A stretch of DNA of 64,000 nt, taken from Nitrospira sp. KM1 (lineage in GTDB: Bacteria > Nitrospirota > Nitrospiria > Nitrospirales > Nitrospiraceae). A model generated the notes under the pieces. That model saw only the letters and a program-made list of their open reading frames with translations, had not been told where the DNA came from and did not search any database. Shown piece by piece: positions 46,811 to 64,000 of this stretch. The stretch is from contig NZ_AP022671.1 in the NCBI RefSeq assembly GCF_011405515.1, positions 2,480,001-2,544,000 on the forward strand, read 5' to 3'. The position numbers and the translations under genes were made by a program. Each line of letters begins with the position of its first letter. Position 1 is the first letter of the stretch.

Positions 46811-46819
46811 CGACATACG

Positions 46820-49800
46820 ATGAGCCTGAGCTTTTTCATCGACCGTCCGATTTTTGCGTCCGTTCTGTCCATCGTCGTCATCGTGATCGGTCTCGTGTCG
46901 ATGCGGGCTCTCCCCGTTGCACAGTTTCCGCCGATCACCCCCCCGACGGTTCAGATCGAGGCCGATTATCCGGGCGCGAGCGCGGAAGTCGTGGCCGAAT
47001 CGGTCGCCAGGCCGATCGAATTGCAGCTTCCCGGCATCGACAATCTTTTGTATTTCGATTCGACCAGCACCAACGATGGGCACGTGAGCATCCGGCTGAC
47101 ATTCCAGATCGGGACGGACGTGGACATCGCGCAGGTGCAGGCGCAAAACCGGGAAAAATTGGCAGAACCGCAGCTTCCGCCTGAAGTCATCCGTCAGGGC
47201 ATCACCGTGAAGAAGATGTCTCCTGATCTCCTTACGGTCATCGTCTTGGAATCGGACGACCCGCGTCAGGATGCCTTTTTCCTTTCAAATTTTGCGATTC
47301 TGCGGATTCTCGACAACATCAAACGTTTGCCCGGTGTCGGTGACGCGTCGGTCTTCGGACAGCAGAATTACAGTATGCGTCTGATCCTCGATCCCGTCCG
47401 CATGGCTCAGCTCAGTCTGACGCCCTCCGATATCGCGACCGTCGTGCGCGAGCAAAACCGCGATTTTCCAGCCGGCACGATCGGCCGGGAACCAATGGTG
47501 ACGGAGACGGAATTGACGCTTCCCCTCATTACGGAAGGACGGATGTCCGAGGTGCGCGAGTTCGAAGACATGATCGTCCGTGCACTGCCCAACGGATCCA
47601 TGGTGCGGCTGAAGGATGTGGCGCGGGTCGAACTGGGGGCGCAGTCGTATGTGCTCGAGGGGCGGTACAAACGCAAGCCGACCGCATTGCTGTTGACCTT
47701 CCTTTCGCCGGGAGCCAACGCTCTGGAAACCGTCAAACGCATCCGGCAGGAAATGAGCAGCCTGACCAAGTTCTTCCCGGCCGGCGTCACCTACGACATT
47801 CCCTATGACACCACGCGGTTTGTCGAGGTCTCGATTGAGGAAGTGGTGGCGACGTTGCGCGATGCGATGATCCTCGTCTTGCTGGTCGTCTACCTGTTTC
47901 TGCAAAGCTGGCGAGCCACGCTGGTTCCGGCGATCGCGGTCCCCGTGTCTCTGATCGGCACGTTCGCCGGTATGGAGGCGCTCGGCTTCTCGATCAATAC
48001 GCTCACGCTGTTCGGATTGGTGCTGGCCATCGGGATCGTGGTCGACGATGCCATCGTGGTCGTGGAAAACGTCGAGCGCCACATGGAAAACGGACTCTCT
48101 CCGAAGAACGCGGCCAAGAAAGCCATGGGCGAGGTAGCCGGTCCGGTCATTGCCATCGTCCTCGTGTTGTGCGCCGTCTTCGTGCCGGTGGGATTTCTCG
48201 GCGGCATTACCGGGCAGCTCTACAAACAGTTTGCCATTACGATTGCCGTTTCGGTGGCGATTTCAGGATTCGTGGCGCTGACATTGAGTCCTGCACTCTG
48301 CGCGCTGGTCCTCAAGCCGAGCCACGGACCTCGCAAAGGATTCTTCGGATGGTTCAACCGTGTGTTCGACCGCACGCAGCACGGATACTCTTCCACGGTG
48401 GCATTGGCGCTGCGCCACAGGATGTTGTCGCTGGCAGTATGCGGTCTGGTCATGGGGGCAGCCCTGCTGCTGTTCAAGCATATTCCGATGGCGTTCCTGC
48501 CCGACGAAGACCAGGGGTATTTCATCACCATTGTGCAGCTTCCGGACGGCGCCTCCAAGAAGCGGACCGATGCGGTCGTGGACCGGCTCGAAGAGTATTA
48601 TCTGACGCTGCCGGCGGTCTACGGCACACAGGGCCTGTCCGGACAGAATTTCGTGTTCAACACACGGGGGACCAACACGGCCACCATGTTCATCCCTCTC
48701 AAGCTGTGGGATCAGCGGAAACAGAAACAGGACCATGTCAAATCTCTCATCGCCGGCGCATTCAAAGAGTTCGGAAAAATTCCCGGCGCGTTGGTGCTGG
48801 CGTTTAACGCCCCGTCGATCCGCGGTCTGGGAGCGACCGGGGGCTTTTCAGTCCAAGTTCAAGATCCCAGTGGGGGGGATTTCAAGGCGTTTGGTGCCAT
48901 TGCCCAGAAATTCGTCGAAACCGCCAGGCAGGATCCGGCGATCGGATCGATCAGCACGAGCTTTCGCGTGAGCGCGCCGCGCGTGCACGCGAAGATCAAC
49001 CGGGAACGGGCGAAAGCGCTGGGCGTGCCGATCTCGGAAGTGTTCGACACGCTGCAGGCCTTTTTCGGGAATCTCTACATCAACGACTTCGTGAAGTTCG
49101 GACGGGTCTACCGGGTGCAAACCGAATCTGAACCGCAATACAGGTCCCGTCCCGCCGATATCAGCAAGATCTACGTTCGGGCGTTGAACGGACAAAGCGC
49201 CTCGATGATTCCGCTTGATACTGTCGTGTCGACGACCTATTCAAGCGGACCCGATCCGGTCACGCATTTCAACGGGTTCAATACTGCGCTCGTGCTTGGC
49301 TCCGCAGCACCCGGATACAGTTCGGGTCAGGCGTTGGATGCATTGCAACGCGCGGCGGATGCCGAACTGGTCCCGAGCGGGTTCGACATCGACTGGAGCG
49401 GGATCTCGTATCAGGAACGCAAGGCCGGCACGCAGTCGGTTCTGGCGTTCGCGTTTGGCCTGCTCATGGTGTTTCTCGTGCTGGCGGCGCAGTACGAGAG
49501 CTGGACCGTGCCGTTTGCCGTCATCCTGGCCGTTCCGTTCGGCGTGTTCGGGGCGCTGACGGCCGTGTGGATGTCCGGCATGACCAACGATATCTATTTT
49601 CAGATCGGTCTGGTCACGCTCATCGGTCTGGCGGCCAAGAATGCCATTTTGATCGTGGAATTCGCGAATCAGCGCTATGAGCACGGGCTCTCACTGACAG
49701 AGGCGGCGATCGAGGCGGCGAGGCTGCGGTTCCGGCCGATTCTCATGACCTCGATGGCCTTCATCCTGGGCGTCGTCCCTCTCGTTCTCGCCAGCGGCGC

Positions 49801-49984
49801 GGGGGCGGCGAGCCGTCATTCGATCGGCACCGGGGTGTTCGGCGGAATGATCGCCGCGACGTTTCTGGCAATCGTGTTCGTGCCCTTATTCTTTGTGGTC
49901 ATTCGGTCATTGAGCGGGCCCTCTACCGCTCCGGTCGGTCGGACCGACGGTCAGCATGCACCCCCGCCGGCCGGCGTCGTATAA
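46820..49984 (+). CDS. RND system A: HAE1-family inner-membrane pump
   Basis: A 1054-residue AcrB/MexB-type pump. The N-terminus MSLSFFIDRPIFASVLSIVV, the TM4 aspartate pair in IVVDDAIVVVENVERH that carries protons, and FLPDEDQGYFITIVQLPDGASKKRTDA in the second half are all typical. Such trimers export hydrophobic drugs, bile-type compounds or dyes. The gene follows the adaptor by nine bases and the channel gene comes 12 bases after it, giving a complete tripartite operon. The substrate is not predictable. Confidence 0.95.
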   Translation: MSLSFFIDRPIFASVLSIVVIVIGLVSMRALPVAQFPPITPPTVQIEADYPGASAEVVAESVARPIELQLPGIDNLLYFDSTSTNDGHVSIRLTFQIGTDVDIAQVQAQNREKLAEPQLPPEVIRQGITVKKMSPDLLTVIVLESDDPRQDAFFLSNFAILRILDNIKRLPGVGDASVFGQQNYSMRLILDPVRMAQLSLTPSDIATVVREQNRDFPAGTIGREPMVTETELTLPLITEGRMSEVREFEDMIVRALPNGSMVRLKDVARVELGAQSYVLEGRYKRKPTALLLTFLSPGANALETVKRIRQEMSSLTKFFPAGVTYDIPYDTTRFVEVSIEEVVATLRDAMILVLLVVYLFLQSWRATLVPAIAVPVSLIGTFAGMEALGFSINTLTLFGLVLAIGIVVDDAIVVVENVERHMENGLSPKNAAKKAMGEVAGPVIAIVLVLCAVFVPVGFLGGITGQLYKQFAITIAVSVAISGFVALTLSPALCALVLKPSHGPRKGFFGWFNRVFDRTQHGYSSTVALALRHRMLSLAVCGLVMGAALLLFKHIPMAFLPDEDQGYFITIVQLPDGASKKRTDAVVDRLEEYYLTLPAVYGTQGLSGQNFVFNTRGTNTATMFIPLKLWDQRKQKQDHVKSLIAGAFKEFGKIPGALVLAFNAPSIRGLGATGGFSVQVQDPSGGDFKAFGAIAQKFVETARQDPAIGSISTSFRVSAPRVHAKINRERAKALGVPISEVFDTLQAFFGNLYINDFVKFGRVYRVQTESEPQYRSRPADISKIYVRALNGQSASMIPLDTVVSTTYSSGPDPVTHFNGFNTALVLGSAAPGYSSGQALDALQRAADAELVPSGFDIDWSGISYQERKAGTQSVLAFAFGLLMVFLVLAAQYESWTVPFAVILAVPFGVFGALTAVWMSGMTNDIYFQIGLVTLIGLAAKNAILIVEFANQRYEHGLSLTEAAIEAARLRFRPILMTSMAFILGVVPLVLASGAGAASRHSIGTGVFGGMIAATFLAIVFVPLFFVVIRSLSGPSTAPVGRTDGQHAPPPAGVV

Positions 49985-49996
49985 GGAGAGCAGAAC

Positions 49997-51424
49997 GTGC
50001 GTGGTCTTTGTGCAGCCATAGTCTCGGGTCTTCTACTCTCATGCGCCATGGGACCGGACTATTCACGGCCGGACATTCCGACGGCGGACTCGTTCCGCAT
50101 GGCCGAGGAAGGCCATGATCTGCCGTCTCTTGCCAATATGCCGTGGTGGGAACTCTACCAGGATCAGGAGCTTCAAACCCTGATCAAGATTTCTCTGGAG
50201 GAGAATAAGGACCTCGAGCGCGCCGTCGCCACCGTCGAGGAATATGAAGCCCGGCTCTTCATTGCAAGAACCGATTTCGCTCCTCAAATGACCGGGACGG
50301 TCAACGCTCCCGTTGCGCGCCAAGGCGGCGTGCGTTTTCGGGGATTTCCGAACCCGTTCAACTACTATGTGCAGGGCAATCTGTCATGGGAAATCGATCT
50401 CTGGGGCCGCATCCGGCGGTCGAATGAAGCGGCGCGCGGTGATTTGCTAGCCCGCGAAGAAAACCGGCGTGCAATCATCCTGCAACTGGTCGGGGGGGTG
50501 GCGCAGGCGTACTTCGACTTGCGGCAATTCGATCTTCAACTGGAGATCTCGCAACGCACACTCCTCGCCTGGGAAGAGTCCGTCCGGATCGGCAAGGCGA
50601 GACATCGGCAGGGATTGATCAACCGGCTGGATGTCGATCAGTTCGAAGCCGAACGGGAAAATGCCGCGGCGCGCATTGCGGATCTCAAACGCCAGATGAT
50701 CCAGAAGGAAAACGAATTGAGCATTCTCCTGGGAAGGAATCCCGGCCACATCCCCAGGGGCCAGACGTTGACCGAACAGATTATGCCCCCCGTGATCCCG
50801 GCCGGCCTGCCCTCGGAACTTCTGCAGCGCCGTCCCGATGTCGTCCAGGCCGAACAGCAACTGGCCGCTGCCACCGCGAGGATCGGGGCCGCAAAAGCCG
50901 ATCGCTTTCCGAAAATCTCCCTGACCGGCATTCTAGGGATCGCCAACCCGAGTCTCTCGAAGCTCTACTTGCCCCAAGATTTGTTCGGTGCCCTTGGACC
51001 AGGGGTGACCGCGCCGTTATTGAACGCCCAGATTCTTGGATTCCAACAGGAGGCGACTCAAGCTCAGGAACGCCAGGCGTTGGCGCAGTACAAGCAGACG
51101 ATTCTGGTAGCATTTCGAGAGGTGGAGGATGCCCTGGCCGGCGTGACCAACACGCGCGACCAGGCGTCGGCCCAGGAGCGACAGGTCAATGCCTTGCGGT
51201 CGGCTCTTCGTCTGGCCAATCTCCGATACAAGGGCGGACTTGCCAACTATCTCGACGTGCTCATTGCGCAACGCAGTCTGTTTGACGCGGAGCTCGCGCT
51301 GGTCGCGACCCGGCGGCTGTATCTGACGTCAGTGGTTCAGCTGTATAAGGCATTGGGCGGGGGTTGGTCTCCGGACGAGCATGGACGGGTGCAGCCAGTG
51401 AGCGCCACTACCGACGCTCAGTAG
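49997..51424 (+). CDS. RND system A: outer-membrane channel lipoprotein (NodT/OprM type)
   Basis: A 475-residue outer-membrane factor. It starts at a GTG with AAGGAG upstream, has a lipobox LLSC with Cys16, and the family marker GPDYSRPDIP soon after. PWWELYQDQELQTLIKISLEEN and two related efflux repeats, ending in YKGGLANYLDVLIAQRSLFDAELALVATRR, identify the TolC-like fold. It completes tripartite system A. The next gene, 137 bases on, is the sigma54 activator, which could regulate it although no binding site was seen ahead of this operon. Confidence 0.93.
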   Translation: MRGLCAAIVSGLLLSCAMGPDYSRPDIPTADSFRMAEEGHDLPSLANMPWWELYQDQELQTLIKISLEENKDLERAVATVEEYEARLFIARTDFAPQMTGTVNAPVARQGGVRFRGFPNPFNYYVQGNLSWEIDLWGRIRRSNEAARGDLLAREENRRAIILQLVGGVAQAYFDLRQFDLQLEISQRTLLAWEESVRIGKARHRQGLINRLDVDQFEAERENAAARIADLKRQMIQKENELSILLGRNPGHIPRGQTLTEQIMPPVIPAGLPSELLQRRPDVVQAEQQLAAATARIGAAKADRFPKISLTGILGIANPSLSKLYLPQDLFGALGPGVTAPLLNAQILGFQQEATQAQERQALAQYKQTILVAFREVEDALAGVTNTRDQASAQERQVNALRSALRLANLRYKGGLANYLDVLIAQRSLFDAELALVATRRLYLTSVVQLYKALGGGWSPDEHGRVQPVSATTDAQ

Positions 51425-51560: not shown

Positions 51561-54143
51561 ATGGAGAGGCCTTCCACATCGCCCTGCGAAACGCTGGCCG
51601 AGCGATACCAGGCGTTGCTGGAAGTCGCCGAATCTATCTCCAGGCACCGTGATCTCCGCGAGCTGTGCCGGGACCTTGCTCAACGTCTGCCTCGTGTCGT
51701 CCAGGTCAACTTCGTCTCCCTATCCCTCCATGATCCTGCGCGCAACATCATGCGGTTGCACACGATACAGGCGAATGTACCGGCCGATCTGATCGGCGGT
51801 CATGAGCAGCCGGTGGAAGACACCCCGAGCGGCGTCGTTTGGCAGACGCAACAACCCATTTTGGTTCCAGAGGTCAAAGAGGAGCGTCGGTGGCCGGGGG
51901 TCCTCGAGCGGATGAAAGAAGACGGGGTACGTTCGTTTTGCGTGGTTCCGCTGACGACGGCGGTCCGCCGCCTGGGAGCCATCGGGTTTTCGAGTTTGCA
52001 AAATCAGGCTTATGGCGAGGCGGATCTGGAGTTCCTCGGACAGGTCGGGAAACAGCTGGGTGTCGCCGTCGATAATGTGCTCCATCAACAGGACCTGGCG
52101 CATGATCGGGACCGCCTGCGCATGTTGTTGGAAGTGTCTGAGTCCATCGCCTCGTACGGCGATCTTGAACAGTTGTTTCAAGACCTTGCCCAGCGCCTTC
52201 CCAAGATCGTCCCGTTCGACTACATCAATGCAGTCCTGCACGATGAAAGCCTCAACGTCATGCGCTTGTGGTTGTTGGTCACGGCGGAGCCGAGCACGAT
52301 CAGTCCAGGATTGGAGTTGCCGGTCGATGAGTCCCCGGGCGGGCTCGTCTGGAAAACGCAGGAGTCGCTGACGGTGAACGATGTGGCACAGGAGCGGCGG
52401 TTTCCAAAACTGATGGCCTTGCTTCGGGACAACGGTGTGGCATCGTTCTGCGTCGTTCCCCTGACGACTGCCCAACGCAAGCTTGGGGCCATGGGGTTCG
52501 GCAGCTTGCATCCGAAGACCTATGACGAAGCAGAGATCGATTTCATGCGGCAAGTGGCCAAACAGATCGCGGTCGCGGTGGATAACGCGCTGAATTCGAA
52601 GGCGGCGCTCGCCTATCAGCGGCAGTTGGCGCTGGAACGCGACCGGCAACGCCTGCTGCTCGAGGTCAACAACGCCGTCGTTTCTCACCTGGAATTGCGC
52701 GAGCTGCTGAAGGCAATTTCAACCTGTCTCAGGCGCGTCATGCCGCATGACCTCGCGGGGTTCGCCCTCTACGATCCCGGCACAGGCCAATTGCTGACGC
52801 ATGCGCTGGACTTTCCGCGAAACCAGGACTTCATCGAGGCTGGTGTCGCCATCCCGCTCGAAGGAACCCCGGAGGGTCGTGCGTTCACGTCTCGGCAGGC
52901 CGTGCGTATCAAACACCTCAGTTTGAGTGAATTTCCCGCGGAGATCATCAAGCGAGCGGAACTGGAAGGTTTGAAATCAGGATGTGCGGTTCCTCTCATT
53001 TCCCATGGGCGGGTCCTCGGCACCCTGAGCGTCGTCAGCTTGCGGGACGATGCGTTCAGCACGGACGACGCCGAATTGTTGACCCAAATCGGGGCGCAGG
53101 TGGCCATTGCCGTAGAGAATGGCCTGGCCTACCGCGAAATCGCCGATCTCAAAGACAAGCTCGGGAAGGAGAAGCTCTACCTCGAAGACGAAATCCGCAC
53201 CGAATACAATTTTGAAGAAATCATTGGAGAGAGCACGGCCCTCAAAAAGGTTCTGAAACAGGTCGAGGTGGTCGCCCCGACCGATTCGACCGTGCTGATA
53301 CTGGGAGAAACGGGTACCGGAAAGGAACTGTTGGCACGCGCCATTCATAACCTGAGCGGACGGCGTGAGCGAACATTCGTGAAGATGAATTGCGCGGCGA
53401 TTCCCACCGGCTTGTTGGAAAGCGAACTCTTCGGGCATGAAAAGGGCGCCTTCACGGGAGCCATCGCCACCAAGATCGGTCGCTTTGAGCTGGCGCATCA
53501 AGGGACGATTTTCCTCGATGAGGTAGGAGAGATCCCGTTGGATCTGCAGGTCAAATTGCTTCGTGTTCTGCAGGAGCAGGAATTTGAACGTCTTGGCAGT
53601 ACGCGCACGATCAGGGTCAACGTGCGCGTGGTGGCGGCGACGAACCGGGATTTGTCGCGGATGGTGGAAGAGGGCGCCTTTCGTAACGACCTGTACTATC
53701 GATTGAATGTTTTCCCCCTGACGGTCCCACCGCTCAGAGATCGAATCGGAGATATCCCACCCTTAGTCCGCCATTTCGCTCAGAAATTTGCGTTGCGCAT
53801 GGGGAAAGGCATCGAAACAATTCCCTCAGAAGCGATCAGGGCGCTCGAAGCCTATCCCTGGCCGGGAAACGTGAGGGAGCTCGAAAACTTCATCGAGCGG
53901 GCGGTCATTCTCTCTCAGGGGTCGGTGCTGCATGTATCATTGGCTGAGCTTCGTCCTCGAGGAGGCGGCAAGGTGCAACCAGCGGCAACGCTGGAGGCCG
54001 CCGAACGAGAGCATATTCTTCGCATACTTCGTGAAACCGGGTGGGTCATCGGAGGCGCTTCTGGCGCAGCGACCAGGCTGGGCATGAAGCGCACCACGCT
54101 TCAATCCAAGATGCAAAAGCTGGGCATTGCCCGTCCTTCCTAA
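51561..54143 (+). CDS. Sigma54-dependent transcriptional activator with three GAF domains (FhlA-like)
   Basis: An 860-residue bacterial enhancer-binding protein. Three GAF domains cover about residues 15-165, 190-345 and 370-525. The AAA+ domain has Walker A GETGTGKE (about 582), the sigma54 contact loop GAFTGA (629-634) and Walker B IFLDEVGEIP, so it is competent to activate RpoN-holoenzyme. A Fis-type helix-turn-helix ends the protein (GAATRLGMKRTTLQSKMQKLGI). The GAF sensors would bind a small ligand, as formate does in FhlA. Forty bases after its stop lies the first double UAS. No receiver domain is present, so it is not a phosphorelay protein. Confidence 0.94.
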   Translation: MERPSTSPCETLAERYQALLEVAESISRHRDLRELCRDLAQRLPRVVQVNFVSLSLHDPARNIMRLHTIQANVPADLIGGHEQPVEDTPSGVVWQTQQPILVPEVKEERRWPGVLERMKEDGVRSFCVVPLTTAVRRLGAIGFSSLQNQAYGEADLEFLGQVGKQLGVAVDNVLHQQDLAHDRDRLRMLLEVSESIASYGDLEQLFQDLAQRLPKIVPFDYINAVLHDESLNVMRLWLLVTAEPSTISPGLELPVDESPGGLVWKTQESLTVNDVAQERRFPKLMALLRDNGVASFCVVPLTTAQRKLGAMGFGSLHPKTYDEAEIDFMRQVAKQIAVAVDNALNSKAALAYQRQLALERDRQRLLLEVNNAVVSHLELRELLKAISTCLRRVMPHDLAGFALYDPGTGQLLTHALDFPRNQDFIEAGVAIPLEGTPEGRAFTSRQAVRIKHLSLSEFPAEIIKRAELEGLKSGCAVPLISHGRVLGTLSVVSLRDDAFSTDDAELLTQIGAQVAIAVENGLAYREIADLKDKLGKEKLYLEDEIRTEYNFEEIIGESTALKKVLKQVEVVAPTDSTVLILGETGTGKELLARAIHNLSGRRERTFVKMNCAAIPTGLLESELFGHEKGAFTGAIATKIGRFELAHQGTIFLDEVGEIPLDLQVKLLRVLQEQEFERLGSTRTIRVNVRVVAATNRDLSRMVEEGAFRNDLYYRLNVFPLTVPPLRDRIGDIPPLVRHFAQKFALRMGKGIETIPSEAIRALEAYPWPGNVRELENFIERAVILSQGSVLHVSLAELRPRGGGKVQPAATLEAAEREHILRILRETGWVIGGASGAATRLGMKRTTLQSKMQKLGIARPS

Positions 54144-54182: not shown

Positions 54183-54216
54183 CGCCGATGAATCGGCACG
54201 TGCCGAGATGTCGGCA
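54183..54216. promoter_or_regulatory. Double upstream activator site, TGCCGA-N4-TCGGCA type
   Basis: Two 16-base palindromes: CGCCGA-TGAA-TCGGCA (54183-54198) and TGCCGA-GATG-TCGGCA (54201-54216), centres 18 bases apart. They lie 111-144 bases ahead of the -24/-12 promoter at 54327, a typical enhancer distance. The same double site occurs at 61388-61421. The neighbouring sigma54 activator is the natural candidate to bind it. Confidence 0.7.
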
Positions 54217-54326
54217 GTCATTCATCGGCCTAGAGGAGCATCTTCGTCCCAGCCCATTCGGCAAGCCGATGGGTAATTCTCGGATTTTCGAGTGTTTAAA
54301 CGTCTCCCAGTCGTCGTTGAACGCGG

Positions 54327-54341
54327 TGGAACGATCATTGC
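54327..54341 (+). promoter_or_regulatory. Sigma54 (-24/-12) promoter ahead of the DedA-rhodanese gene
   Basis: TGGAACGATCATTGC matches the consensus TGGCACG-N4-TTGC at all defined positions but one, including GG and GC spaced by ten bases. It lies 47 bases before the ATG at 54389, leaving a short leader. With the double palindrome upstream, it makes a complete RpoN-type control region. Confidence 0.7.
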
Positions 54342-54388
54342 CACTGTCGAGGTCGAAACAGGCGTCGGCCCACGAATCGGAGATCAAA

Positions 54389-55345
54389 ATGGATGCGGTG
54401 ATCCAGTTTCTAGGCGGTCAAGGCGCGATGGTGCTCTTCGTCGCCATACTCGCAAAACAGATCGGCCTGCCCATACCCGCCGCACCCTTGCTGATTGCAG
54501 CGGGAGCGCTGGCAGGCAACGGGCAGTTGAGCCTGGGCATCGCCTTCGCCTCTGCGATGAGCGCCGCGCTCCTAGGAGATCACGTGTGGTACGAACTGGG
54601 CCGCCGTAAGGGCCGCGTGGTGCTGATGTGGCTCTGCAGGCTTTCATTTGAGGCGACTGCATGTGTTCGGAGGATGGAGGACATCTTCACACGGCACGGT
54701 ATGCGCTCGCTGATCGCCGCGAAATTCGTTCCGGGTCTGAGCACCATCGCGCCTCCGCTGGCTGGAATCGTGGGGATGCGATCTGCTCACTATTTTTTCT
54801 ATAACGCCCTCGGAACCGCGATCTGGATCGGTGCGGAGCTTGGACTCGGATATCTCTTGCGGGATCAACTTGATTGGCTGCAGGCGGTCACGTCTCAGAT
54901 CGGACCGTTCCTCGCGGTACTCACTGTGGCGGCGCTTGGGAGCTATGTCGTTTTCAGGCTTGTTCGGCGACGATTTGTTGAAAGGTTGGTGCCCCGCATG
55001 ACCGCCGAACGCGTGACTGAGAAACTCGCAGCCGGAGAGGATCTTTTCATTGTCGATCTCCGTTCACGGGAAGCTCGTCAGGATGAGGCGGGCATTCCAG
55101 GAGCCGTGGCTCTCTCCATTGAGAATCTGCTCGCGATGCGCAAGGATTTTCAAGATGACCGGGATACCATTCTTTATTGTGCCTGCCCGGGCGATGCGGC
55201 AAGCCTGTATGCGGCCTGGAAGCTCCGCGGTCAGGGGGTGACGCGCGTGTGGCCCTTGGCGGGCGGTCTGGGGGCCTGGCAAGCACTGCACAATCAACCG
55301 ATGGCCGCGCACGGAATGCGAGATATTCATACGGTTGCGGCCTGA
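54389..55345 (+). CDS. DedA-family membrane protein fused to a rhodanese domain
   Basis: A 318-residue fusion. Residues 1-200 are a DedA/VTT-type membrane domain with KQIGLPIPAAPLLIAAGALAG and the basic motif FVPGLSTIAPPLAGIVGM; the C-terminal 120 residues are a rhodanese with the active-site loop CACPGDAA. DedA proteins are flippase-like transporters of undecaprenyl phosphate or phospholipids and support envelope integrity; the attached rhodanese may transfer sulfur or act as a redox switch. ATG 54389 has GGAG upstream. It is driven by a predicted sigma54 promoter and followed by the TerB/Coq4-like gene. Confidence 0.88.
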   Translation: MDAVIQFLGGQGAMVLFVAILAKQIGLPIPAAPLLIAAGALAGNGQLSLGIAFASAMSAALLGDHVWYELGRRKGRVVLMWLCRLSFEATACVRRMEDIFTRHGMRSLIAAKFVPGLSTIAPPLAGIVGMRSAHYFFYNALGTAIWIGAELGLGYLLRDQLDWLQAVTSQIGPFLAVLTVAALGSYVVFRLVRRRFVERLVPRMTAERVTEKLAAGEDLFIVDLRSREARQDEAGIPGAVALSIENLLAMRKDFQDDRDTILYCACPGDAASLYAAWKLRGQGVTRVWPLAGGLGAWQALHNQPMAAHGMRDIHTVAA

Positions 55346-55387: not shown

Positions 55388-56368
55388 ATGGAATTGCGAT
55401 TACCTACACCGGAGCAAGCGTACTGGGGTTTGCGAGCCATGAAGACCGTGGCCCTTGCCGATGGCGTGCTGGATGAATCCGAGGCGCATATGCTGACTTC
55501 CATACAACGAATTCTGGGGACAGATCACCCGATCGATCAGCTCCCGTGTATCGATCCCGGGAAACTCGCACGCGAGCTTCAAGACCGCCAAATCCGGCAG
55601 CAGCTTGTCCAGGGCCTGATTATTGTGTCTTTGATCGATGGCAAAGCCGACGAACAGGAAACGGCATTGGTCGAACAATTCGCCCAGGCGTTAGAAGTGA
55701 AGGCCATAGAGGTTGAGGATCTCCGACACCTGCTGAAGGGGGAGATTCTCGCGCTCCGTCTTGACCTGGCGCGGAGGTTTTGGCTTCGGGACAAAATCAA
55801 GGAGATATGGAACGAGGAAGGAATTCGCGGTCTCTACAAATTTGTTCGAGGGATGATCGGGCAATACGAAGACCCGACGCTCGCAACACGGTATCAGGCC
55901 TTGGAACACTATCCCGAGGGATCCTTAGGGCGGACGTATTGGGAGTATTGCCGGCGCAACGGTTTTGCCCTTCCCGGAGAAAAGGGCGGAGCGGCGGAGC
56001 CGATTCTATTCCACGACTGCGCTCATATCCTGTCCGGATACGGAACTGATCCAGCGGGGGAAGTTCAGGTGGCATGTTTCAGCGCGGGATTTCAACGCCG
56101 CGATCCTTGGCTCTTCGTCTTCTTCGTCCTCCTGCAGTTTCACGTCGGGATCAGGATGACACCCATCACGCAGGCTCGCACGGGATTCTTTGATCCGCAA
56201 AAGGCGTTGATCGCGATCCGGCGCGGAGCAGCAATGAACGTGGACTTGAATTCGGGATGGGATTATTGGCCTGTGATGCGCGAGCAAGTCGAGGAATTGC
56301 GCCGACGGTACAATATTCCGTCGTTGGAAAGTTTCACACCCGCGAGCCACCATGTGTCCGCATCCTAA
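55388..56368 (+). CDS. Protein with TerB-like N-terminus and Coq4-like C-terminus
   Basis: A 326-residue soluble protein. Residues about 5-120 are a helical TerB-like tellurite/stress module (YWGLRAMKTVALADGVLDES and IIVSLIDGKADEQETALVEQ). The C-terminal part carries FHDCAHILSGYGTDPAGE, the HDxxH-x-E metal motif of Coq4, which in eukaryotes removes the C1 carboxyl in ubiquinone synthesis. It follows the DedA-rhodanese gene by 42 bases and is probably under the same sigma54 promoter. A role in quinone or membrane stress is a reasonable inference. Confidence 0.78.
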   Translation: MELRLPTPEQAYWGLRAMKTVALADGVLDESEAHMLTSIQRILGTDHPIDQLPCIDPGKLARELQDRQIRQQLVQGLIIVSLIDGKADEQETALVEQFAQALEVKAIEVEDLRHLLKGEILALRLDLARRFWLRDKIKEIWNEEGIRGLYKFVRGMIGQYEDPTLATRYQALEHYPEGSLGRTYWEYCRRNGFALPGEKGGAAEPILFHDCAHILSGYGTDPAGEVQVACFSAGFQRRDPWLFVFFVLLQFHVGIRMTPITQARTGFFDPQKALIAIRRGAAMNVDLNSGWDYWPVMREQVEELRRRYNIPSLESFTPASHHVSAS

Positions 56369-56484: not shown

Positions 56485-57108
56485 ATGAAACGCGTCGATA
56501 CAAAACTTCAGCAGCTTCTGCTCAACGCCGCCGAGGCCGTGGTCGCCCGTCAAGGCATTGCAAACCTGACACTCGACGCCGTGGCCGCCGAGGCCGGCAT
56601 GAGCAAAGGGGGGCTCCTGCATCACTTTCCATCGAAAGATCGGTTGGTCGTCGCGCTCGTCACGCGTTGCGCGGAGGGTTGGCGGTCCTGCTATACGGAA
56701 GCGTACGCACGAACATCGGAAGGGCCTGGGCGCATGGCGCGCGCATTGTTGAGTCATTGTCTTTCGGATGCCAAGTGCTGGACTGAGGAATTGCGCCGCA
56801 GTTCCTCCGCCGTGTTCGCGGCATTGGCCCAGAATCCCGCCCTGATCGAACCGATGCGCGCCGTGTACGCGGATCTTCACCGCCGTCTAGCAGACGACGG
56901 GTTGCCGCCCGGTGTATCGGAGGCGGTCGCCGCGGCCATCGACGGTTTATGGTTAGACTGGGTGCTGGGATTCGTTCCGCTGGAACAAACCCGCGTCGTC
57001 CGTGTGCGCAAAGCCTTGGAGGATATGCTCGCACGAGCGAAGCCTGTTCACCGCTTGCCAAAACTCGTTCCTGCCCCCGCAAAACGTGTAGGAGGGCGTC
57101 GCGCATGA
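56485..57108 (+). CDS. TetR-family transcriptional repressor
   Basis: A 207-residue repressor. The N-terminal helix-turn-helix reads NLTLDAVAAEAGMSKGGLLHHFPSKDRLVVAL, the classic TetR DNA-binding motif, and the remainder is a helical ligand-binding domain. It is preceded by two matching operators and overlaps the adaptor of RND system B by four bases, so it probably represses its own operon until an effector binds. The ligand is not predictable, though pump substrates are likely. Confidence 0.93.
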   Translation: MKRVDTKLQQLLLNAAEAVVARQGIANLTLDAVAAEAGMSKGGLLHHFPSKDRLVVALVTRCAEGWRSCYTEAYARTSEGPGRMARALLSHCLSDAKCWTEELRRSSSAVFAALAQNPALIEPMRAVYADLHRRLADDGLPPGVSEAVAAAIDGLWLDWVLGFVPLEQTRVVRVRKALEDMLARAKPVHRLPKLVPAPAKRVGGRRA

Positions 57109-58229
57109 CGGCACATCATTGGATGAAATCGTTGCTGCTTCTCCTGACGGTCGTGGTGCTCGGTATCGGCTTGGCGGCATGGAAATATACGTCTATCCAG
57201 GAAAATGCCGCGGCCTCGGCAAATCAGCCGGAACCGATGGAATCGGTCACCGCGGCTCCGGCTCGCGCGCTCGAACATCGGATGAGCGCGACCTCGATCG
57301 GGACGGTGCTCGCATTGCGTTCCATCAGTTTGCGTAACGAACTTCCGGGGACCGTGAAGGAAGTCACGTTGACGCCCGGACAGATCGTTGAAAAGGGAAC
57401 GGTGCTGGTGGCGCTCGATGTGTCGGTCGAAGAGGCCGATCTGAAGGCGCAGCAGGCGCAAGCTGCTCTCGCGCAGGCCGTGCTCAAACGACGACAACAT
57501 CTGCGACAGGATCTCGCGACGGCGCAGGAAGAAGTGGATCGGGCGCGTGCCGATCTCGACGTGGCCTTGGCCCAGATTGCGCGCACGAAGGCGATCATCG
57601 CCCGAAAAACGATCAGAGCACCCTTTCGCGCGAGGATCGGGTTGGCCGATGTGCATCCGGGGCAATATCTGAATGAAGGGAGTCAGCTCACGACGTTGCA
57701 GGGCGTTGACGACGCCGTACACATCGACTTCATGGTGGCGCAGCAGGTGGCGGCGGGACTGCGTGTGGGTGACAGCGTGGAGGTATTCTCCGCCGAGCAA
57801 TCGGCGCCGGTAACCGCAAAGCTCGTTGCGATCGACGCACGGGTCGATCCGGCGACCCGCAATGCCATGATTCGCGCCAGAATTGAAGGTGCCAGTGGGA
57901 CACCATCACCCGGATCGTCCGTCCGCGTCAGAGTCCCGGTCGGTCCGTCGAGGAAAGGTGTCGCCATTCCGGCTAGTGCGCTGCGAAAGGGGCCGGGAGG
58001 CGATCAGGTCTTCGTGATTACTCCGGACAAGGACGGCAATCCCCGGGCGTACGGACGGCAGGTGGAGACCGGCACCATGCTCGGTGAAGAAGTCGTCATT
58101 CTCGATGGTTTGCCGGCCGGCCAACTCGTCGCGACCTCCGGATCGTTCAAGCTCCGCGATGCCGTGCGCGTCATCATCGCCGATGCGGATGCGAAGAACG
58201 GACAGGACCACGGACCGGACGGACAATAA
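57105..58229 (+). CDS. RND system B: periplasmic adaptor
   Basis: A 374-residue membrane-fusion protein anchored by an N-terminal helix (SLLLLLTVVVLGIGLAAWKY). The lipoyl half-motifs RNELPGTVKEVTLTPGQIVEKGTVLVALDV and the beta-barrel RARIGLADVHPGQYLNEGSQL are typical of MdtA/CusB-like adaptors. It starts within the TetR stop (ATGA) and precedes the pump by 42 bases. It differs clearly from the adaptors of systems A and C. Confidence 0.92.
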   Translation: MTAHHWMKSLLLLLTVVVLGIGLAAWKYTSIQENAAASANQPEPMESVTAAPARALEHRMSATSIGTVLALRSISLRNELPGTVKEVTLTPGQIVEKGTVLVALDVSVEEADLKAQQAQAALAQAVLKRRQHLRQDLATAQEEVDRARADLDVALAQIARTKAIIARKTIRAPFRARIGLADVHPGQYLNEGSQLTTLQGVDDAVHIDFMVAQQVAAGLRVGDSVEVFSAEQSAPVTAKLVAIDARVDPATRNAMIRARIEGASGTPSPGSSVRVRVPVGPSRKGVAIPASALRKGPGGDQVFVITPDKDGNPRAYGRQVETGTMLGEEVVILDGLPAGQLVATSGSFKLRDAVRVIIADADAKNGQDHGPDGQ

Positions 58230-58270: not shown

Positions 58271-61200
58271 ATGCGTAGGTTCACCGACATCTTTATCAAG
58301 CATCCTGTCCTGGCGGTGGTCGTCAACCTCGTCATCGTGCTCGTGGGCTGGCGGGCGCTGACCGTCCTCCCTCTGCAGCAATATCCGAAAATCGAAAGTT
58401 CCTCGATCATTATCACCACGGTCTATTACGGAGCCGCGGCCGAGACGGTGCGCGGTTTTCTCACAACCCCGATCGAGCGGGTGGTGTCTGCGATCAGCGG
58501 GGTGGATTATCTGGAATCGACAAGCCGCGCCGGCGTCAGCACGGTCACCGTCCACCTGAAATTGAACCACAACAGCACGGCGGCACTCGCCGAAGTCACC
58601 GCGCGCCTGCAGCAGGTCCGCTCGGAACTGCCGCCGGAAGCGGAGCCCCCCGTCGTCGAAGTTCAACGGGCCGACCGGCCGTATGCATCGTTCTATCTCA
58701 GTTTCACGTCGTCGGAACGGAGCGTCCCGGCGGTGACCGATTGGCTTGTCCGAACTCTGCAGCCGCAACTGGCCACGCTTGCCGGCGTGCAACGGGTCAC
58801 CATCGAAGGCGGGCGGCAGATTGCCATGCGCATCTGGATCGATCCCGACCGCCTCGCCATGTTCAATCTTTCGCCGGGAGACGTGCAGGCGGCCTTGCGG
58901 CGCAACAATTACCTGGCCGCCGTCGGACGCACGAAGGGCAATCAGGTCCAGGTGAATCTGCTGGCGAACACCGACCTGCGTTCCACCGAGGAATTCGAAC
59001 ATCTGATCGTCGCTGATCGCGGAGGCGCGATCGTTCGGTTGAGCGATGTGGCGCGAGTCGAGTTGGGGGCCGAAGAGGCCGAGATGGTCGCCAAGTACGG
59101 CAAGACCGAGGGTGTCTATCTGGGGGTATGGCCGTTGGTCGGTTCGAACGAGATCGAGGTCGCGCACCGCCTGCGTGATGAAATGGAGCGCATCAGACCG
59201 ACCCTGCCCAAAGACATCGACATGCGGTTGGTCTGGGACGGAACGATGTTCATGGAAAACGCGTTGAAGGAGATTACCAAAACACTCGGTGAGACGATTT
59301 TAATCGTCGCCGTCGTCGTCTTCCTCTTCATGGGTTCGGTGCGCACGGCGCTCGTCCCATTGGTGGCCATGCCCATTTCGCTGGTTGGCGCGGCCATCTT
59401 CATGTACACGTTCGGCTTCAGTTTGAATCTTCTGACCATTCTGGCCATCGTCCTGTCGGTTGGGCTGGTGGTCGACGACGCGATCGTCGTCGTCGAAAAC
59501 GTCGAGCGCCATGTCCGACTGGGCAAATCCAGAATCGAGGCCGCATTGGTCGGCGCCCGCGAACTGGTCGGCCCAATTATCGCCATGACGATCACGCTGG
59601 CTGCGGTCTACGCGCCGATCGGCTTTCAGGGCGGATTGACGGGTTCGCTCTTCTTGGAATTTGCGATCACACTGGCCGCCGCCGTGGTGCTTTCCGGCAT
59701 CGTGGCGGTGACGCTGTCTCCTGTGATGAGTTCGCGTTTCGTCCATGCTCAGGGAGAGGAAGGCCGCTTTACCAAATTCGTCAATGGTGCGTTCGAGCTG
59801 GTGCGTCGGCTGTACGCCCGGATGCTCGATGCGGCGCTTGAAATGCGCTGGGCGATCGTCGCAGCCTCGTTGCTGGTCATGGTGGCGGCTTGGCCGCTCT
59901 ACATGTTTTCCAAGCAGGAACTCGCGCCAGTCGAGGATCAGAGCCACATCAGTCTGTTTCTCGAAGCCTCGCCGGATTCGACCTTGGAGGCGAGCAACCG
60001 GGACACGATGAAGGTCGTGGATGCGGTCACGGCATTTCCGGAAGCGCGATTCATGTGGTCGTTGACGACGGCTTGGGGCGGGTTTGGCGGCATGGTGGCC
60101 AAGGACTGGCACGAGCGGACCCGTTCGACGGAGGAACTGTTCGGACAGGTCTTCGGCGCGGTGTCGCAGGTCCCGGGGCTGCGGGTCTTTCCCCGACTCG
60201 ATCCCCCGCTGCCGACGCCCGGTCAATACGATGTCGAACTGGTGCTGCAGAGCGATGCCCCGGTAGGACAGATGATGGAAACGGCCGGGGCGGTTCTCGG
60301 AGCCGGTTGGCAAAGCGGCAAATTCTTGTATGTCGATACCGATCTGAAAATCGACTTGCCGGAAGCCCGAGTGGTTCTGGATCGGGAGCGGCTCGCGGAT
60401 CTTGGATTCGATCTGGCCGGTGTCGGGCGTGAACTCGGCACGCTGCTCGGCGGTGCGTACGTCAATCGGTTCAATTTCTTCGATCGCAGCTATAAAGTGA
60501 TTCCGCAGATCGGTGATCGAGACCGGGCAACGGTCGGACCGCTGCTCGATCTCAAAATCAAGACGCCGGGCGGGCAACTCGTTCCCGTATCGACCTTTAC
60601 GCACATAGAGTCGAGTACGGCGCCGCGCACCTTGAACCGGTTTCAGCAGCGCAACGCCGTGAGAATTTTCGGCGGAGTCAAGCCGGGCGTGACGAAGGAC
60701 GAAGGGTTGCGGGTGCTCGAACAGGCAGTCGGTTCGACGGGGGGCTCGCGCGTGGTGCTCGATTATGCCGGCGAATCACGGCAGATCCGTCATGAAGGAT
60801 CCGCTCTCACGGTCACACTCGGCTTCGCCATCGTCCTGATTTATCTGGTCCTGGCTGCGCAATTTCAGAGTTTTCGCGATCCGCTGATCGTCCTGCTCGG
60901 CTCAGTACCGCTGGCGATCTCGGGAGCGTTGGTCTTCAGTTTTCTCGATCTCACCACCATCAACATTTATTCACAGGTCGGGTTGATCACTCTTGTGGGA
61001 TTAATCGCTAAAAACGGCATTCTCATCGTAGAGTTTGCCAACACGCTCCAGGCCCGTGGCCTGCCCAAGATCGATGCGTTGCGTGAAGCGTCGGTGACCC
61101 GGCTACGACCTGTACTGATGACCTCCGCGGCCACCGTCTTTGGCCATCTTCCTTTGGTGCTCGCCACCGGGCCCGGAGCGGCGGCGCGCAATAGCATCGG

Positions 61201-61378
61201 AGCCGTACTCGTCACCGGCATGACGGTGGGAACGCTGTTTACGCTGTTCGTCGTACCGGTGTTCTACTCGCTGATCGCCGCACAGCATCAACCGGACCGC
61301 CCGAATGTCGCCACGGGCGACGTTCGGCCGAGATCAACCGGCCATCCGGTTCCCACACCCTCCTTTGTAGAAACGTAA
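58271..61378 (+). CDS. RND system B: inner-membrane multidrug pump
   Basis: A 1035-residue RND pump of the MdtB/MdtC-like or MexF-like branch. It has MRRFTDIFIKHPVLAVVVNL at the start, the TM4 aspartates in LVVDDAIVVVENVERHVRLG, and GLIAKNGILIVEFANTLQARG in the second half. It should use the proton gradient to export amphipathic compounds with the adaptor before it. No outer-membrane factor gene follows, so it would borrow one, for example that of system A. The double palindrome of the sigma54 type starts ten bases after its stop. Confidence 0.94.
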   Translation: MRRFTDIFIKHPVLAVVVNLVIVLVGWRALTVLPLQQYPKIESSSIIITTVYYGAAAETVRGFLTTPIERVVSAISGVDYLESTSRAGVSTVTVHLKLNHNSTAALAEVTARLQQVRSELPPEAEPPVVEVQRADRPYASFYLSFTSSERSVPAVTDWLVRTLQPQLATLAGVQRVTIEGGRQIAMRIWIDPDRLAMFNLSPGDVQAALRRNNYLAAVGRTKGNQVQVNLLANTDLRSTEEFEHLIVADRGGAIVRLSDVARVELGAEEAEMVAKYGKTEGVYLGVWPLVGSNEIEVAHRLRDEMERIRPTLPKDIDMRLVWDGTMFMENALKEITKTLGETILIVAVVVFLFMGSVRTALVPLVAMPISLVGAAIFMYTFGFSLNLLTILAIVLSVGLVVDDAIVVVENVERHVRLGKSRIEAALVGARELVGPIIAMTITLAAVYAPIGFQGGLTGSLFLEFAITLAAAVVLSGIVAVTLSPVMSSRFVHAQGEEGRFTKFVNGAFELVRRLYARMLDAALEMRWAIVAASLLVMVAAWPLYMFSKQELAPVEDQSHISLFLEASPDSTLEASNRDTMKVVDAVTAFPEARFMWSLTTAWGGFGGMVAKDWHERTRSTEELFGQVFGAVSQVPGLRVFPRLDPPLPTPGQYDVELVLQSDAPVGQMMETAGAVLGAGWQSGKFLYVDTDLKIDLPEARVVLDRERLADLGFDLAGVGRELGTLLGGAYVNRFNFFDRSYKVIPQIGDRDRATVGPLLDLKIKTPGGQLVPVSTFTHIESSTAPRTLNRFQQRNAVRIFGGVKPGVTKDEGLRVLEQAVGSTGGSRVVLDYAGESRQIRHEGSALTVTLGFAIVLIYLVLAAQFQSFRDPLIVLLGSVPLAISGALVFSFLDLTTINIYSQVGLITLVGLIAKNGILIVEFANTLQARGLPKIDALREASVTRLRPVLMTSAATVFGHLPLVLATGPGAAARNSIGAVLVTGMTVGTLFTLFVVPVFYSLIAAQHQPDRPNVATGDVRPRSTGHPVPTPSFVET

Positions 61379-61387
61379 CGCGGTCGC

Positions 61388-61421
61388 TGCCGACGTCTCG
61401 GCTCGTGCCGAGATATCGGCA
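61388..61421. promoter_or_regulatory. Second double TGCCGA-N4-TCGGCA site, ahead of the STAS/RND-C operon
   Basis: TGCCGA-CGTC-TCGGCT (61388-61403) and TGCCGA-GATA-TCGGCA (61406-61421), centres 18 bases apart, exactly as at 54183-54216. Twenty bases (CGTGCCGAGATRTCGGCAGT) are shared between the two loci with one change. It sits downstream of the RND-B pump and upstream of the STAS gene. Confidence 0.68.
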
Positions 61422-61508
61422 GTCCCGATTCGTCACATTAAGCATGGCTTAGATATAAGTCTTGATTCATGATAATTTTCAATATTTTAGGAGAAGGCTC
61501 TTTATTCA

Positions 61509-61523
61509 TGGCAAGGAACGGGC
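61509..61523 (+). promoter_or_regulatory. Possible sigma54 promoter ahead of the STAS gene
   Basis: TGGCAAGGAACGGGC has the required GG and GC ten bases apart and TGGCA at -24, but GG in place of TT before the -12 GC. It lies 88-121 bases after the double site and 36 bases before the ATG. It is a weaker match than the site at 54327. Confidence 0.4.
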
Positions 61524-61558
61524 TTTGCCATGGCCAGGTATTAGATAAGGAGCTGACG

Positions 61559-61873
61559 ATGCTAAAAATAAGTGAACGACAGGAGAAGGACGAAGGTCCC
61601 ATTTCTCTGATTCTTGAAGGGCGCCTCGCCGGTCCATGGGTGGGAGAAGCCGACCTCTATTGGGGCCGTATCGCTGCTGCCCAGCGAAGTCACGCAGCGG
61701 TCGATTTGAGCGGTTTGACTTTCGTCGATGCGGACGGCAAGGCGCTCCTCACTCGAATGTGGCAAGACGGAGCCCGGTTATCCGCGACCGGATGTTTAAT
61801 GAGATGTCTTGTCGAGGAAATTACCGGAAAAGGTCAGAAACGGTCAGACCTAACCAAGCAGTGTTCGGATTAA
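61559..61873 (+). CDS. STAS-domain-like protein
   Basis: A 104-residue soluble protein. ISLILEGRLAGPWVGEADLY and AAVDLSGLTFVDADGKALLT follow the STAS/anti-sigma-antagonist fold, but the phosphorylated Ser motif (DSSG) is changed to DADG, so phospho-control is unlikely. Such proteins sit next to RND or Mla-type operons as small partners. AAGGAG upstream of ATG 61559 sets the start; the frame is open to 61469 without a site. It begins the operon STAS - small membrane protein - RND-C. Confidence 0.75.
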   Translation: MLKISERQEKDEGPISLILEGRLAGPWVGEADLYWGRIAAAQRSHAAVDLSGLTFVDADGKALLTRMWQDGARLSATGCLMRCLVEEITGKGQKRSDLTKQCSD

Positions 61874-61889: not shown

Positions 61890-62030
61890 ATGGAATCGAT
61901 CACAGCAATCACCCTGACAATTGCTTTACAGGTGTCGATCATTTTCATTGCGGGTCTTTCATGGTGCTATGCGGCGTTCAAAGTGGCCCGTGCAGCACAC
62001 AATAGGAAACTGCGACGGGACCTCGAATGA
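61890..62030 (+). CDS. Small single-helix membrane protein, 46 aa
   Basis: An ORF of 46 residues, MESITAITLTIALQVSIIFI, then AGLSWCYAAFKVARAAHNRK and a basic tail. It has one hydrophobic helix of about 25 residues with positive charges after it, so it would sit with its C-terminus in the cytosol. GGAGGTG lies four bases before the ATG and the stop overlaps the adaptor start by four bases (ATGA), which strongly suggests translation. It may be a small accessory subunit of the pump, comparable in size to AcrZ, though not related in sequence as far as I can see. Confidence 0.75.
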   Translation: MESITAITLTIALQVSIIFIAGLSWCYAAFKVARAAHNRKLRRDLE

Positions 62031-63229
62031 TGAACACACGCGTGAAGATGATAGGTCCCGGCGTTCAGCCGCGCATGCTGATGCTCGCGGTGGCCGTGGT
62101 TCTTGGACTGAGCGGTTGCAGGCAGGAGGCCGGCTCTGCCCCCCCGCAGCAGCTGCCTCAGGTTGAGGTGGTCACCGTGACGACACAGACGGTGCCCGAT
62201 GAGCCGGAATTTATCGGCCAGGCGGAAGCCTCGCGCCCCGTGGAGATCCGATCGCAGGTCACAGGCATTTTGAAGGCCGTGCTCTATCCCGAGGGGCGCG
62301 ATGTGAAAAAGGGAGACCGGCTGTATCAAATCGATCCGGTTCCATTTCAAGCGGCCGCGGCCGGCGCCAAGGCCAAGATCGCGCAAGCCGAGGCAAAGGT
62401 CGTTCAGGCAAAGCAGGATCTTGCGCGAGTCAAGCCCCTCTTGGCCGATCAGGCCGTGAGTCAGAAAGATGTCGACGATGCCATTGCCGCGGATCTCTCA
62501 GCCAAGGCTGCGGTTCAAGGTGCCAAGGCCGATCTGATCAAAGCTCAATTCGATTTGGACAATACGCTGATCATCGCGCCGATCGCCGGGTTGATCGAGC
62601 GAAGCCGCTACTACGAAGGCCGTCTGGTCTCGGCTCAGACCGATTTGCTGACCACCATTCATCGTGTCGATCCGATGTACGTTGTCGTGAGCGTTCCGGA
62701 GACGTTCCTTTTGAAACGTCAGCGCGATATCGAGCAAAAGAAGATCGAACATCCCGGCGTCTATCAACTGCGGGGCGTCCTGAAGCTGATGGACGGGACT
62801 CTTTATCCGCAGGAAGGTGTGCTGGATTTGATGGAACCAGGCTTGCGGACGGAGACCGGATCGCGCCAGGTGCGCATGACATTCGCCAATCCGAAACGAG
62901 CGTTGCTGCCCGGTCAGTTCGTCAACGTGAAATTCAAGGGAGATGCAAAGCCCAACGCGGTCCTCATCCCGCAGCGCTCGGTCCAACAAGGTCCCCAGGG
63001 GCCGTTCGTCTATGTGGTCGGTCCGGAGGACAAGATCGAAATCCGAAATGTCCAGGCTTCGGCCTGGCAGGGTGACCAGTGGCTCATCGATTCGGGGTTA
63101 CAAACAGGCGAACGCGTGGTCGTCAACGGGTTGATGAAGATTGGACCTGGCGCTCTCGTCAATGCCGTGCCTCTTGGAGCGGTGCCATCGACTGAAACGG
63201 CCCCTCCCACCGAACCGAAACAGGGATGA
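62027..63229 (+). CDS. RND system C: periplasmic adaptor lipoprotein
   Basis: A 400-residue adaptor with lipobox LSGC at Cys31. It is a clear paralog of the system A adaptor: PDEPEFIGQAEASRPVEIRSQVTGILK, GRDVKKGDRLYQIDPVPFQA and QAKQDLARVKPLLADQAVSQKDV are almost the same words. The C-terminus ends in a Pro/Thr-rich tail. The ATG overlaps the preceding small membrane gene. The pump gene begins four bases after its stop. Confidence 0.93.
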   Translation: MMNTRVKMIGPGVQPRMLMLAVAVVLGLSGCRQEAGSAPPQQLPQVEVVTVTTQTVPDEPEFIGQAEASRPVEIRSQVTGILKAVLYPEGRDVKKGDRLYQIDPVPFQAAAAGAKAKIAQAEAKVVQAKQDLARVKPLLADQAVSQKDVDDAIAADLSAKAAVQGAKADLIKAQFDLDNTLIIAPIAGLIERSRYYEGRLVSAQTDLLTTIHRVDPMYVVVSVPETFLLKRQRDIEQKKIEHPGVYQLRGVLKLMDGTLYPQEGVLDLMEPGLRTETGSRQVRMTFANPKRALLPGQFVNVKFKGDAKPNAVLIPQRSVQQGPQGPFVYVVGPEDKIEIRNVQASAWQGDQWLIDSGLQTGERVVVNGLMKIGPGALVNAVPLGAVPSTETAPPTEPKQG

Positions 63230-63232
63230 GCC

Positions 63233-64000
63233 GTGACTTCACACGTCTTCATTGATCGGCCGATTCTGGCCTCCGTCGTATCCATCATCATCGTCGTCAT
63301 GGGACTGCTTGCCGTGCAGTTTTTGCCGATTGCGCAGTTTCCTGAAATCACCCCACCGGTGGTGCAGATCGATGCGGACTATCCCGGCGCCAGCGCGGAG
63401 GTCGTCGCAGAATCTGTCGCGCGGGCGATCGAGGTCCAGTTGCCGGGGATCGACAACCTCGTCTACTTTGACAGCACGAGCAGCAACGACGGCCATGTGA
63501 CCATCAAGTTGACGTTCGAAATCGGGACCGATCCGGACATCGCGCAAGTCCAAACCCAGAATAGAGAAAAATTGGCGGAGCCCCAGCTGCCTCCAGAGGT
63601 GATCCGGCAGGGCGTCAGTGTCAAGAAGATGTCTCCTGATCTGGTGGCCGTGATCGCGCTCAAGTCCACCGATCCGAATCACGACGCGGTCTTCCTGTCC
63701 AACTACGCCATCTTGCGTTTGGTCGACAACGTGCGTCGCGTCAAGGGAGTCGGAGATGCGATGGTGTTTGGACAGCAGAACTACAGCATGCGCATCATCC
63801 TGAATCCGCTGCACATGGCCAAACTGGGACTGACGCCGACGGATATCGCTGCCACCATCCGCGAGCAAAACAGGGACTATCCGGCCGGCACCATCGGACG
63901 CGAGCCAGCTCCAAAGGGTACCGAGATGACCATTCCGGTGATCACGAAGGGCCGGCTGACCGAGGTCCAGGACTTTGAAGAGCTGATCGTCCGCGCGATG
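63233..64000 (+). CDS. RND system C: inner-membrane pump, N-terminal 256 residues
   Basis: The pump runs off the right edge. The visible part begins with a GTG and reads MTSHVFIDRPILASVVSIII, ITPPVVQIDADYPGASAEVV, QVQTQNREKLAEPQLPPEVI and NYSMRIILNPLHMAKLGLTP. These are the porter-domain landmarks of HAE1 pumps, and it is closely similar to the system A pump over this length. With the adaptor it would form a second AcrAB-like system. Whether an outer-membrane gene follows cannot be seen. Confidence 0.93.
   Translation, partial: MTSHVFIDRPILASVVSIIIVVMGLLAVQFLPIAQFPEITPPVVQIDADYPGASAEVVAESVARAIEVQLPGIDNLVYFDSTSSNDGHVTIKLTFEIGTDPDIAQVQTQNREKLAEPQLPPEVIRQGVSVKKMSPDLVAVIALKSTDPNHDAVFLSNYAILRLVDNVRRVKGVGDAMVFGQQNYSMRIILNPLHMAKLGLTPTDIAATIREQNRDYPAGTIGREPAPKGTEMTIPVITKGRLTEVQDFEELIVRAM

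Follow-up and report, generated by a model that had tools for sequence, protein, structure and literature searches.

A predicted one-component sigma54 regulon with tandem palindromic enhancers at RND efflux operons of Nitrospira sp. KM1

Analysis of the window, a stretch of 64,000 nucleotides from Nitrospira sp. KM1, revealed a gene encoding a GAF-type activator and two copies of a tandem palindrome, each positioned upstream of a sigma54-like promoter and a set of membrane or efflux genes (Table 1). The activator ORF ends at 54143, which leaves 39 bases between its stop codon and the first palindrome of copy 1. The GCCGA-N4-TCGGC pair of copy 1 has its centers 18 bases apart (approximately 1.7 helical turns). 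An earlier interpretation made without database searches (the sequence-only reading) had noted this pair just 3' of the activator, and the rescan returned the same positions, 54183 and 54201. Copy 2 (61388-61421) was absent from that reading; its 18-bp period is identical, and it fronts the STAS-like/RND efflux operon. Beyond the window, the RND pump gene of this second operon is followed by an outer-membrane channel gene. A third RND system, consisting of an adaptor, an AcrB-type pump, and a NodT-type channel, is located at 45700-51424, directly 5' of the activator gene, without a recognizable tandem of its own.

Table 1. Genes and sequence elements of the two predicted sigma54-dependent units (window positions)
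Feature	Position	Strand	Basis
Activator, 860-aa enhancer-binding protein; 3 GAF, Sigma54_activat AAA+ with GAFTGA, Fis-type HTH	51561..54143	+	Pfam; GAFTGA read from ORF
Distal palindrome, copy 1: CGCCGA-TGAA-TCGGCA = CGCCGATGAATCGGCA	54183..54198	.	Motif scan of window
Proximal palindrome, copy 1: TGCCGA-GATG-TCGGCA = TGCCGAGATGTCGGCA	54201..54216	.	Motif scan of window
Weakly conserved extra half-site TCGGC, 3' of copy-1 tandem	54225..54229	+	Family logo positions +41 to +48
IHF-like TTTCGAGTGTTTA, 1 mismatch to TTTCAANNNNTTA; weak	54286..54298	+	Read from spacer; enrichment in 106-112 class
-24/-12 sigma54 promoter, TGGAACG-ATCA-TTGC = TGGAACGATCATTGC / TGGAACGATCATTGCC	54327..54342	+	Window scan, family comparison
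Target 1: DedA (VTT)-rhodanese fusion protein	54389..55345	+	Pfam PF09335, PF00581
Target 2: TerB/Coq4-like protein	55388..56368	+	Pfam TerB 3.8e-13; Coq4 below cutoff
TetR-family regulator; possible read-through member (inferred)	56485..57108	+	Profile search
RND adaptor MFP1 (HlyD-type); orthologues elsewhere have own tandem promoter	57105..58229	+	Profile searches, relatives' loci
RND pump RND1 (AcrB family)	58271..61378	+	Profile searches
Distal palindrome, copy 2: TGCCGA-CGTC-TCGGCT	61388..61403	.	Motif scan of window
Proximal palindrome, copy 2: TGCCGA-GATA-TCGGCA	61406..61421	.	Motif scan of window
Extra half-site TCGTCAC, copy 2	61430..61436	+	Read from sequence; family logo
IHF-like TTTCAATATTTTA between enhancer and promoter, copy 2	61477..61489	+	Spacer scan
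-24/-12 promoter, copy 2: AGGAACG-GGCT-TTGC = AGGAACGGGCTTTGCC / AGGAACGGGCTTTGC	61514..61529	+	Window scan, family comparison
STAS-like protein, first gene of second operon; start set 3' of promoter	61559..61873	+	PF13466 E 0.0042 (below cutoff); orthologues behind tandems
Small membrane protein ORF, 46 aa	61891..62031	+	Sequence/translation
RND adaptor MFP2	62027..63229	+	TIGR01730
RND pump, gene start, running past window	63233..64000	+	Gene maps incl. L048; sequence

Both predicted promoters have the GG and GC of their -24/-12 elements 10 bp apart and share GGAACG-N4-TTGCC. The promoter at 54327 lies 110 bases 3' of the copy-1 tandem and is the sole site in the window that matches TGGCACG-N4-TTGC with no more than one mismatch. 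This mismatch is an A for C in GGCAC, and GGAAC is the norm in the family. The -24 element of copy 2 deviates from the consensus in its first base (A, not T). The last base of the 54327 promoter is 47 bases 5' of the DedA-rhodanese ATG at 54389. The position, one-mismatch status, and distance given in the sequence-only reading were all reproduced.

The exact pattern GCCGA-N4-TCGGC-N4-GCCGA-N4-TCGGC was found twice in the 4.5-Mb genome, both times within the window, and the reversed-pattern control gave no match. This result excludes a chance origin of the tandem. With up to three mismatches, the genome contained five tandems (reversed control, 0). A single perfect palindrome at genome position 1334668, the third in the genome, and a 2-mismatch tandem at 403151 were dropped, as each sits within a long open frame. 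Another 2-mismatch tandem, at 3757288 (L178, 9989), is intergenic, with a small STAS-like/SpoIIAA-like ORF on one side and a FabG-like gene on the other, and lacks a good sigma54 site.

The tandem was then counted at two or fewer mismatches in 147 Nitrospiraceae genomes; assignment to this family was made from named contigs matching genomes in the search, among them Nitrospira sp. CR1.3 and UBA5699, from the genus of the window. It was present in 69 of the 147 genomes, compared to a total of about 11 for the reversed-pattern controls. Removal of identical copies from the family genomes and named contigs left 68 distinct tandems, and both sides of each were searched for TGGMAYG-N4-TTGCY (GG and GC fixed, up to two mismatches). 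Such a sigma54 site was located 90 to 114 bp away in 57 of the 68 tandems but at only 1.2% of positions chosen at random within those loci. The tandem-to-promoter distances fell into two narrow classes, 93 to 97 bp (class A) and 106 to 112 bp (class B), both inside the 80 to 200 bp typical of enhancers that serve sigma54 promoters. Comparison of loci of equal spacing revealed a spacer identity of 31%, which is near the random level, and an identity of 84% for the -24/-12 sites, indicating that the promoters are kept while the surrounding DNA drifts; the palindrome arms were 94% identical, a value partly fixed by the search pattern itself. The family logo, oriented by the promoter, showed a proximal palindrome GCCGANATNTCGGC(A), a distal palindrome whose core varies, and, some 9 bp past the tandem, a weaker half-site, TCGGCAC/TCGTCAC. 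The rpoN gene is present in the genome (E 3e-56), and the sites are conserved in relatives, as the regulon proposed by the sequence-only reading demands.

In class A, 10 of 14 spacers carried an IHF-like TTTCAANNNNTTA in the middle, compared to 1.0 expected from shuffles. The enrichment was weak in class B (8 of 44; 1.6 in shuffled spacers). Involvement of IHF at these promoters is tentatively considered likely; the HU/IHF-family protein of the genome, at 118 bits, scores just under the IHF-alpha (himA) cutoff of 120.

The genes behind the conserved promoters form a consistent set. Of 58 tandem-promoter units, 51 had a homologue of a window gene as the first recognized downstream gene, namely, DedA-rhodanese (17), STAS-like (18), RND adaptor (13), or TerB/Coq4-like (3). 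Gene maps of 20-kb loci revealed the same genes in rearranged order, with one tandem per operon and up to four per genome. The main targets in relatives were RND operons (STAS-like-adaptor-pump-outer membrane channel or adaptor-pump), accompanied by DedA-rhodanese and TerB/Coq4-like genes. The two targets named in the sequence-only reading, DedA-rhodanese and TerB/Coq4-like, remain part of the predicted regulon, but that list was too narrow given the second promoter of the window and the predominance of RND efflux operons across relatives. The quinone stress response that it had suggested gained no support, since the Coq4 match (20.7 bits) is below the Pfam cutoff of 22.9.

In relatives' loci, the activator gene is often directly 5' of the tandem, with its stop codon 5 to 55 bp away. 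Activator and tandem occurred together in 52 genomes, tandem without activator in 17, activator without tandem in 22, and neither in 56 (odds ratio, 7.8; p 1e-8; the genomes are related, and the counts are therefore not independent events). The 17 tandem-bearing genomes without a strong activator match include fragmented assemblies and some coding matches. Most activators without a strict tandem for which the locus was fetched are followed by palindromes that have diverged, stand alone, or are spaced by 19 bp, and the sigma54 site is where it normally lies; the number 22 therefore overcounts true absences of the tandem.

The activator combines Sigma54_activat and GAFTGA with a Fis-type HTH and a GAF sensor, as one-component GAF enhancer-binding proteins do. 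Its HTH (GAAxxLGMKRTTLQSKMQKLGI) is almost invariant among activators directly 5' of tandems. A paralogous GAF activator at genome 1751399 (G000:C1:1750300-1753250; L221) has an 877-aa frame with the same HTH signature and is followed by a related double palindrome, then by CGGCACGCTCTGTGCC as a possible sigma54 site and by a gene for a lipoprotein, DUF3313-like by eye. This paralogue could bind the same DNA as the window activator, and cross-talk is possible. A short sister group of about 520 aa has a nearly identical HTH and 19-bp tandems, which precede DoxX/STAS-like or adaptor genes; the sister activators at L227, L232, L233, and L197 likewise show the same palindromes with a period of 19 bp rather than 18 bp, 5' of genes of these types.

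The best named NCBIfam model for the activator was FhlA, the formate hydrogenlyase activator of Escherichia coli, with 622 bits over residues 353-858, which is below the NF011958 cutoff of 830. The NorR model NF003451 scored 384 bits (cutoff, 476). FhlA has the same GAF, AAA+, and Fis-type HTH modules and usually acts from paired inverted repeats 5' of sigma54 promoters, and NorR, a nitric oxide-responsive regulator, is likewise a GAF-gated AAA+ activator of a neighboring operon. NorR systems use multiple palindromic enhancer sites and IHF. The window activator differs from FhlA in its three GAF domains over a longer N terminus, in its linkage to efflux/membrane genes instead of hydrogenase genes, and in the palindrome arms, which are GCCGA/TCGGC, whereas the FhlA UAS is given as TGT/ACA inverted repeats (PMC6615313). 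NorR has one GAF domain and different target genes.

The unit is conserved in its anatomy and keeps its spacing, and it is linked to a single activator family and a single group of target genes. These data support well the local sigma54 regulon with paired enhancers and an adjacent GAF activator that had been proposed from the sequence. We consider it highly probable (approximately 0.87) that the locus encodes a one-component sigma54 regulon in which the FhlA-like activator at 51561-54143 uses the tandem enhancers and the core output is RND efflux together with membrane-associated proteins. Most likely, a single sensor-activator turns on drug efflux pumps and membrane protection genes.

The palindromes might instead be bound by another regulator, either the GAF paralogue at 1751399 or the TetR-family protein encoded within the operon, while the adjacent activator acts elsewhere. 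The similar HTH of the paralogue and the related site immediately 3' of its gene are in line with this explanation, as is the presence of the TetR-family gene. We regard it as unlikely, because the tandem in relatives sits directly behind the orthologue of the window activator and at a fixed distance from sigma54 promoters, which require an enhancer-binding protein. Moreover, most gene maps of relatives contain no TetR gene, and the 19-bp-spaced or altered tandems of sister activators are consistent with a variant for each activator. It is much less probable still that the palindromes act at the RNA level, as hairpins 3' of the activator gene (terminators or mRNA structures), and that the sigma54-like sequence is incidental. 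Both regions do form good RNA folds (z -2.4 and -5.2), as any palindrome would, and the copy-1 site follows a gene end, but a search for a T-tract or terminator-like site at the palindromes found none. The palindromes also front operons without a preceding activator, and both their period (18 bp) and their distance to -24/-12 are fixed, with loops that vary. The idea of chance palindromes or a dispersed repeat family without a regulatory role, compatible with 36 single palindromes at one mismatch in the genome (control, 12) and with many matches within long open frames in high-GC genomes of other phyla, can be dismissed because the only two perfect tandems both lie 5' of sigma54-like promoters and the sites are kept where spacers have diverged; for the tandem form, chance is refuted by the family counts, the genome scan, and the sigma54-distance statistics.

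For the sigma54 regulon favored here, the simplest mechanism is textbook sigma54 control, in which a ligand-gated hexamer of the activator occupies two dimer sites. The cytoplasmic FhlA-like activator is predicted to bind the tandem GCCGA-N4-TCGGC palindromes 18 bp apart, and it is plausible that its three GAF domains sense a ligand. The DNA between enhancer and promoter would bend into a loop, a step in which an IHF-like protein would assist, at the STAS/RND promoters at least. The AAA+ ring would then contact RNA polymerase-sigma54 at TGGAAYG-N4-TTGC, about 95 or 110 bp away, and open the promoter. Promoter 1 would drive the DedA-rhodanese and TerB/Coq4-like genes and probably read on into TetR-MFP1-RND1, and promoter 2 would drive STAS-like-MFP2-RND-outer membrane channel. 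From the gene content we infer an efflux function, in which a toxic or membrane-active compound would be exported while membrane-associated companion proteins are produced; the pumps, DedA, and rhodanese suggest defense against a membrane-active or electrophilic compound.

Exact tandems beside activator homologues and/or the STAS-like gene were also found on contigs labeled Terriglobia, Blastocatellia, Acidobacteria (Acidobacteriota), Deltaproteobacteria, Rokubacteria, and others; in some of them, a sigma54 site lies 94 to 114 bp away. Many exact matches in high-GC contigs of Streptomyces, Mesorhizobium, and Kiritimatiellota were rejected as coding repeats, lying in long open frames without an activator or sigma54 site. 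On the retained contigs, the STAS-like gene precedes HlyD-ABC or EmrAB-like exporter genes or is fused to an apparent TolC-type channel (ORFs read by eye). Two such fusions, at L060 3419-5018 and L087 complement ~2650-4260, are single ORFs with an N-terminal STAS-like domain followed by the apparent channel, and the L087 ORF is followed by EmrA/EmrB-like exporter genes. In three Acidobacteriota loci (L111, L070, and L138), a gene for an ECF-type sigma factor lies 3' of the tandem, and in two of the three a STAS-like gene separates them; this arrangement is possibly a sigma54-to-ECF cascade. We tentatively propose, at somewhat less than even odds, an unnamed cross-phylum family of FhlA-like GAF activators with one enhancer code (tandem GCCGA-N4-TCGGC, 18/19-bp period, about 95/110 bp to sigma54) that controls a small STAS-like protein and the exporter of each lineage (RND, HlyD-ABC, or EmrAB type). 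It would act as a general sigma54 "efflux alarm," with the STAS-like protein as partner of the pump.

The order of activator gene, enhancer palindromes, -24/-12 site, and adjacent operon resembles computed sigma54 regulons of Desulfovibrio vulgaris (PMC4641369), Clostridiales (PMC6615313), and several phyla (PMC12316311, PMC3162934). RND pumps do not appear in the three survey texts that were checked for this term, the Clostridiales paper does not mention efflux, and the Desulfovibrio paper contains no TCGGC enhancer. Openly accessible literature, to which our search was confined, yielded nothing relevant on the motif, on sigma54-controlled efflux in Nitrospira, or on the STAS link, an absence that is not proof. 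The type of switch is known, and the identity of the regulon is new and appears to be undescribed.

Genetics is little developed in Nitrospira, a key group of nitrifiers, and next to nothing is known of their regulons. For them, the locus provides a concrete, testable regulon in which activator, targets, and operator code are all specified. It also links sigma54 with RND efflux, a connection unmentioned in the searchable sigma54 surveys. Since several phyla share the site, the activator, and the STAS-like gene, a single screen for binding and inducers could account for how efflux is induced in many soil bacteria that have not been cultured.
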